64,000 bases of DNA from assembly GCF_011057645.1 (NCBI RefSeq), contig NZ_JAALGE010000002.1, positions 1 to 64,000 on the forward strand, read 5' to 3'. The position numbers were made by a program, and so were the translations under genes. This DNA comes from Marisediminicola senii (lineage in GTDB: Bacteria > Actinomycetota > Actinomycetes > Actinomycetales > Microbacteriaceae). The notes below the pieces were generated by a model that was not told the origin of the DNA, did not search any database, and saw nothing but the letters and a program-made list of their open reading frames with translations. This document shows, piece by piece, positions 59,572-60,732 of this stretch. Positions within the stretch are counted from its first letter, which is position 1; each line of letters starts with the position of its first letter.

Positions 59572-59723
59572 CGAAACCCCCTCGCCCGGTAGGAGCCACC
59601 CACCGGGATTACCGCCACACTCCCATGCCAGCCGGCAATGCCGGACCGGCACTGCAAGTATGACCGACCACACGCGCGACCGCATGGATAGGGAGGAACT
59701 CAACAGCGCGTGACTGACCGACG

Positions 59724-60116
59724 TGGTGGAGATGGGGGGAATTGAACCCCCGTCCACTGCTGTGGTCCTGTGCCTTCTACGGGTGTAGCCAGTGCAGACG
59801 TTCTACTCGGCTCCGGAATTTGCCACTGGCACCTATTCCGACAAGCCCAGCCGTAGTTCGAGTCCCGCTGTGCCCTACGACACAACACAGCAGCAATCTC
59901 TCTAAATTACGCCAGTGGCCGGGTAGAGAGCATTCCCGGACTGACGGTCTCTGTAGTAGCTAGGAGAGACTACGCCGCGAGGGCGAAGTCAGCCTTGGCT
60001 GAGACAGTGCTGTTTGATTTGGCACTTATGTTTTACCGGGATCGTTTACGAGTTAACCCGGTGTCCTCGACCCGCTTCTCACAGTTGCGCAGGCAATGTC
60101 GAAACCGATCATCCCC
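59724..60116 (-). ncRNA. ssrA: tmRNA
   Basis: The 5' end reads GGGGATGATCGGTTTCGACAT and the 3' end TTCAATTCCCCCCATCTCC followed by ACCA, giving a seven-base-pair acceptor stem (GGGGATG with CATCTCC, one G-U) with encoded CCA. Total 393 nt. The tag frame runs 60023-59970: AKSNSTVSAKADFALAA followed by TAG. The short T-loop GTTCAATTC and the tag ending ALAA are diagnostic. tmRNA with SmpB rescues stalled ribosomes and tags the product for Clp/FtsH proteolysis. smpB lies 139 bp upstream on the same strand. Confidence 0.96.
59970..60023 (-). other. tmRNA proteolysis-tag reading frame
   Basis: Seventeen codons encode AKSNSTVSAKADFALAA, then TAG. The resume codon is GCC (Ala). The C-terminal ALAA is the recognition end for ClpXP-type proteases. 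Confidence 0.93.
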
Positions 60117-60159
60117 ATGTGCACCCGCTCGGAGTGGTGGCAGTCACGCGCTGTTGAGT

Positions 60160-60165
60160 TGTCAA
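60160..60165 (-). promoter_or_regulatory. TTGACA, candidate -35 of ssrA
   Basis: A perfect TTGACA on the minus strand lies 44 bases before the mature 5' end, but no good -10 stands 17 bases on (TGCCAC). TAAGAT at 60193-60198 is an alternative -10 further upstream, which would put the inverted-repeat arm in the transcript. Confidence 0.35.
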
Positions 60166-60255
60166 TCGCCGCACCTCGCGGTGCAGCCCTCTATCTTACG
60201 ATGGATGCCTGCGCTCCACTACCAGGTCGGCATACTCGAAGCGGTGCCGCAGGAA

Positions 60256-60732
60256 TCAGTCGCCGAGGTTACGGCGGGCGCCCATGGCCCGGTCGGCCTC
60301 GCGCTTGTCCTGGCGTTCGCGCAGCGTCTGCCGCTTGTCGTATTCGCGCTTGCCCTTCGCGACGGCGATCTCGACCTTGGCCCGGCCGTCGAGGAAATAG
60401 ATCGAGAGCGGCACGATCGTGTACCCGCCCTCCTTGATCTTGTTGTGGATCTTGAGGATCTGCTGCTTGTGCAGCAGCAGCTTGCGCTTGCGACGGGGCG
60501 GGTGGTTGTTCCAGGTGCCCTCGTTGTACTCGGGGATGTGCACGGCGTCGAGCCACGCCTCGCCGTACTCGACGAACGCGTACCCGTCGATCAGCGACGC
60601 ACGCCCGGCCCGCAGTGACTTGACCTCGGTGCCGGTGAGCACGAGTCCCGCCTCGTAGGTGTCCTCGATCGTGTAGTCGTGGCGCGCCTTGCGGTTGCTG
60701 GCGACGACCTTCTGGCCACGCTCCTTGGGCAT
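60256..60732 (-). CDS. smpB: SsrA-binding protein
   Basis: 158 aa OB-fold protein. [39 protein letters not shown] and [11 protein letters not shown] are family hallmarks; the basic C-terminal tail ([17 protein letters not shown]) enters the mRNA channel. It binds tmRNA and delivers it to stalled ribosomes. GGAGAG precedes the ATG. Located between ftsX and ssrA, the common actinobacterial order. Confidence 0.97.

Follow-up and report, generated by a model that had tools for sequence, protein, structure and literature searches.

A boxC-like leader element and a leader-trailer helix around tmRNA in Microbacteriaceae

The ssrA locus and its inverted repeat

The window, i.e., the whole 64,000-nucleotide stretch of DNA analyzed here, carries a tmRNA gene (ssrA; Rfam search score 163.9 bits) next to smpB on its minus strand (Table 1). 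The tmRNA gene is bracketed by an inverted repeat with 424 nt between its two arms, which are complementary at 20 of 20 positions (100%); the 5' arm lies 24 nt before the mature 5' end of tmRNA and the 3' arm 7 nt after the 3' end. An earlier note on this DNA had described a perfect 20-bp inverted repeat around ssrA, had given the same two distances and had considered a chance match negligible, and all three statements were borne out. As a baseline for chance, displaced flanks from 98 relatives were searched for complements in the same way; the longest exact match averaged 6.6 nt, and with a maximum of only 10 nt, a repeat of 20 nt is far beyond chance. Folding of the precursor placed the 20-bp helix at its base (z = -4.9), with none of 100 shuffled sequences folding as well.

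Table 1. Features at the ssrA locus (window positions)
Feature	Position	Strand	Basis
3' arm of leader-trailer helix	59697..59716	-	exact complement, fold, relatives
tmRNA (ssrA), tag AKSNSTVSAKADFALAA	59724..60116	-	ARAGORN and Rfam RF00023
5' arm of leader-trailer helix, AACTCAACAGCGCGTGACTG on the minus strand	60141..60160	-	exact complement, fold, relatives
boxC-like element AACTCAACAG, context TTGACAACTCAACAG	60151..60160	-	core in 16S/23S leaders; matrix derived from rrn leaders
Leader hairpin GCTGCACC-GCGA-GGTGCGGC, in the usual place of boxB	60168..60187	-	fold; family enrichment
Putative -10 hexamer TAAGAT of ssrA; expected start near 60185	60193..60198	-	sequence; family leaders
smpB, directly upstream of ssrA	60256..60732	-	open reading frame; translated relatives also adjoin ssrA

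Two further candidate explanations for the repeat were rejected. An intrinsic terminator, for which a short-loop hairpin and a T run after it would be expected, does not fit the distance between the arms, and no terminator-like site was found on the minus strand here. Terminal repeats of a mobile element were rejected by inference, as the arms enclose the tmRNA precursor only and occur in the same place in most genera. With regard to the encoded peptide, the window carries the long form of the tag, while a 12-residue tag of the ANSKRTDFALAA type is found in most relatives.

Conservation and covariation of the arms

A total of 100 genomes of the family Microbacteriaceae (78 genera, including that of the window; a scan with smpB gave Clavibacter, Agromyces, Curtobacterium and Microbacterium among other names) were searched for tmRNA, and ssrA flanks were obtained from 99 of these. 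The longest exact complement between leader and trailer measured at least 10 nt in 74 of the 99 genomes and at least 12 nt in 60. When a stem was defined as at least 9 exact pairs starting at or within the boxC-like element that opens the 5' arm (see below), 75 of the 99 genomes had one, as compared to 11 with swapped trailers. Approximately a quarter of the family genomes showed no clear stem; imperfect stems were found among those failing this definition (e.g., L048, L085 and L098), and in L052 and L030 the 3' arm was displaced to approximately 60 nt downstream. Six stemless family members (L050, L068, L090, L102, L103 and L104) retain the boxC-like motif next to the mature tmRNA; their leaders read AACT(C/A)AAYA directly before its 5' end, as in other families, and several of the six have small genomes.

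Two genomes of the family show unusual arrangements. L072 (genome G082) retains the 5' arm, and a 3' arm was found neither in the 3' flank nor in the whole genome; the 3' end of ssrA may recently have undergone an insertion or a replacement, in which case this locus would be a natural arm-loss mutant. L042 (genome G069) contains two complete ssrA copies approximately 1 kb apart (positions 401-774 and 1797-2173) with the same tag; both copies keep boxC and the leader arm, and their 3' arms are placed differently.

To assess covariation, own leader-trailer pairs were compared with pairs in which the trailers had been swapped among genomes, using an identical procedure for both. The mean exact match was 12.3 nt for own pairs as compared to 6.85 nt for swapped pairs (sd 0.17; 0 of 5000 permutations), and the mean duplex energy was -49.9 kcal/mol as compared to -36.8 kcal/mol (0 of 2000). 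As permutations of this kind ignore relatedness, a comparison within genera that had been sampled twice was added. Among aligned stem pairs that differed between two members of the same genus, both bases had changed in 43 and a single base in 22, in counts that lean towards pairing since the stems had been fitted to it. For example, a compensatory change from CG to TA inside the boxC part of the stem separates the window from its congener L053. RNAalifold, applied to separately aligned flanks, returned no structure because the 3' flanks misalign, and the swapped trailers and same-genus pairs were used in its place. The arms are thus co-conserved and compensatory in relatives, and the excess of own over swapped matches together with that of two-sided over one-sided changes shows that the stem around tmRNA is an RNA helix under selection.

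A boxC core shared with rRNA leaders

The ssrA 5' arm opens with AACTCAACAG, which is also the core of the 16S leader of the same genome, TTGAGAACTCAACAGCGTGC. This 16S leader contains TTGAGAACTCAACAGCGTGCACAATG, with its partner GCACGCTGTTGGG downstream of 16S, and the 23S leader contains TTTGAGAACTACACAGTGGACGCGAGC. The pattern GANAACTNNAYAG has five matches in the 3.2-Mb assembly. Three lie in rRNA leaders (two 16S and one 23S), one at ssrA and one in a coding gene (L248); no RNA gene is present at the last site, and this match was taken as chance. Of 35 sampled Actinomycetes genomes, nearly all have a 16S leader with this core, and most have a 23S leader with it. The earlier note had likened the core of the arm to a processing element in actinobacterial rRNA leaders and had proposed searching for the 20-mer in this genome's rRNA operons. 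The likeness was confirmed, the shared part being the core of boxC in the rrn leader, with the 16S processing arm after it. In M. tuberculosis, boxC reads GAACUCAAUAG, for which a text search of the literature returned nothing relevant. As cited in one report (PMC6614801), M. tuberculosis boxC binds NusA and belongs to the duplex whose cleavage by RNase III frees pre-16S rRNA, and it has been suggested that NusA presents the upstream arm to its downstream counterpart. Structures of M. tuberculosis NusA have been solved (2asb and 2atw), and the genome of the window encodes both RNase III and NusA.

We further applied a weight matrix built from rRNA leaders alone to ssrA leaders, with the 99th percentile of shuffled sequences as threshold. 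Matches were found in 80% of the ssrA leaders of the family as compared to 1-2% of control stretches, in 46% of 132 leaders from other Actinomycetes (representing 23 of 40 families) and in 6 of 23 ssrA leaders of a phylum-level sample; in several families (f19, f28 and f30) the motif was absent or unclear. Possibly, AACTCAACAG is kept for a reason other than NusA, e.g., recognition of the leader by RNase P or a role as initiation sequence, in which case its likeness to rrn boxC would be incidental. Binding of NusA to the ssrA leader is predicted here from sequence, and outside the family 50 of 61 matches, generally without a stem, end no more than one base from the mature 5' end, i.e., where RNase P cuts. 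Within the family, however, the motif is conserved despite lying mostly 20-60 nt from the RNase P site; moreover, it is detected by a matrix that contains no ssrA sequence, and apart from the single match in a coding gene, its matches across the genome all lie in rRNA and ssrA leaders. We thus consider a role independent of NusA the less likely reading and favor a boxC function of the element.

Like the actinobacterial rrn nut site (boxB-boxA-boxC), the ssrA leader has a boxC core, and this core is often preceded by a hairpin that may correspond to boxB; in 86 family leaders, a hairpin between the -10 hexamer and boxC was found in 46, as compared to 12 of 86 for a control segment. Unlike the rrn sites, which have G at position 3 (TTGAGAACTC), the ssrA element has C (TTGACAACTC); in addition, no clear boxA was identified in the ssrA leader, where the comparison was limited to a shared TTGA, and the transcript is only approximately 0.5 kb long.

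As TTGACA adjoins the 5' arm, the earlier note had offered the alternative that this arm is promoter DNA. The hexamer is indeed present (60165-60160) and overlaps the arm by one base, as might be expected if TTGACA were a -35 element and the arm part of a promoter or an operator. However, TTGACA is intact at this position in only 17 of the 86 family leaders, TAnnnT was found 16-18 nt after a TTGACA-like hexamer in none of the 86 and not in the window either, and a promoter scan of the window identified no sigma-70-type site at the 5' arm. Hexamers of the form TANN[AC]T instead peak 20-49 nt upstream of boxC in these leaders, and the arms covary, which would not be required of an operator. The promoter reading was therefore rejected and appears highly improbable. 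As the conserved -10-like hexamer lies upstream of the 5' arm, both arms are predicted to be transcribed.

A proposed maturation pathway for pre-tmRNA

The ssrA helix is similar to the leader-trailer helices of 16S and 23S rRNA in that its arms bracket the mature RNA and begin at boxC; the ssrA arm and the 16S arm of the same genome have the core CAACAGCG in common. On the other hand, the ssrA helix encloses tmRNA and is found in some lineages only, and at approximately 20 bp it is shorter than the 16S helix of enterobacteria (25-40 bp; PMC10250234). In the actinobacterium P. acnes, the complementary sequences flanking 16S and 23S rRNA are cut in a staggered manner, and these cuts have been assigned to RNase III (PMC3848588).

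We infer a pathway, on the strength of the sequence comparisons, in which pre-tmRNA would be bound by NusA, cleaved by RNase III, and finished by RNase P and exonucleases. The order of elements would be promoter, leader hairpin, boxC (AACTCAACAG), 5' arm, mature RNA and 3' arm. RNA polymerase would start upstream of the 5' arm; NusA, riding with the polymerase, would bind boxC and hold the 5' arm until the 3' arm has been made; the arms would then pair, RNase III would cut each side of the duplex, and the ends of tmRNA would be finished by RNase P together with 3' exonucleases. Overall, boxC and the leader-trailer helix probably serve to present pre-tmRNA to RNase III on the plan of an rRNA operon, and these data suggest that in most Microbacteriaceae, including the genome of the window, tmRNA is made and trimmed by borrowed rRNA processing machinery.

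The helix could also be real without being a substrate of RNase III, closing the precursor so that it folds more readily or its ends are protected from exonucleases while RNase P and trimming carry out all processing. In E. coli, rnc is dispensable, and yet the leader-trailer helix of 16S rRNA is important for subunit formation (PMC10250234). Relatives that lack the stem evidently mature their tmRNA anyway, which likewise agrees with a purely structural helix. Yet a perfect 20-bp duplex is a typical RNase III substrate, and the core that the ssrA arm has in common with the 16S arm belongs, in actinobacteria, to an RNase III processing duplex. A helix that RNase III does not cut thus seems unlikely, and we retain cleavage by RNase III as the preferred explanation. 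In a Streptomyces venezuelae rnc mutant, ssrA was up, yet it was not among the direct targets (PMC12096830). As Streptomyces-like genomes (f31) are without the stem, this result bears little on the helix. Together with the P. acnes and E. coli work, it agrees with the proposed pathway without settling it.

Maturation of tmRNA in E. coli proceeds by RNase P at the 5' end and trimming at the 3' end and gives identical mature tRNA-like ends; to our knowledge, neither a leader-trailer helix nor a boxC is known for it. In the open-access literature that we searched, no account was found of tmRNA having a boxC or being flanked by an RNase III stem. If boxC is shared, production of the RNA that rescues ribosomes would be coupled to the machinery by which ribosomes are made. 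In addition, the role of boxC becomes directly testable in an RNA of 0.5 kb that needs no long-range antitermination, and natural genomes with boxC alone or with boxC and helix are available for this question.

Outside Microbacteriaceae, stems occur in f5, f11 and f15, three families that belong to its order. Most other actinobacteria carry the boxC part alone, immediately ahead of the mature 5' end, and the helix thus looks like a lineage-limited addition. The simplest history would be an old boxC beside the RNase P site, with the helix inserted between the two later. That a NusA-binding boxC in the tmRNA leader extends throughout Actinomycetota, with the RNase III helix in Microbacteriaceae and a few related families, is a tentative generalization to which we assign slightly less than an even chance. 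If true, tmRNA would be transcribed and matured with Nus machinery of the rRNA type, and the rRNA processing pathway would also serve a non-ribosomal RNA, pre-tmRNA. One genome from another family of the same order (G128) contains two full-length tmRNA matches, with scores of 146 and 118 bits (C3:130901-131262 and C1:2366442-2366807).
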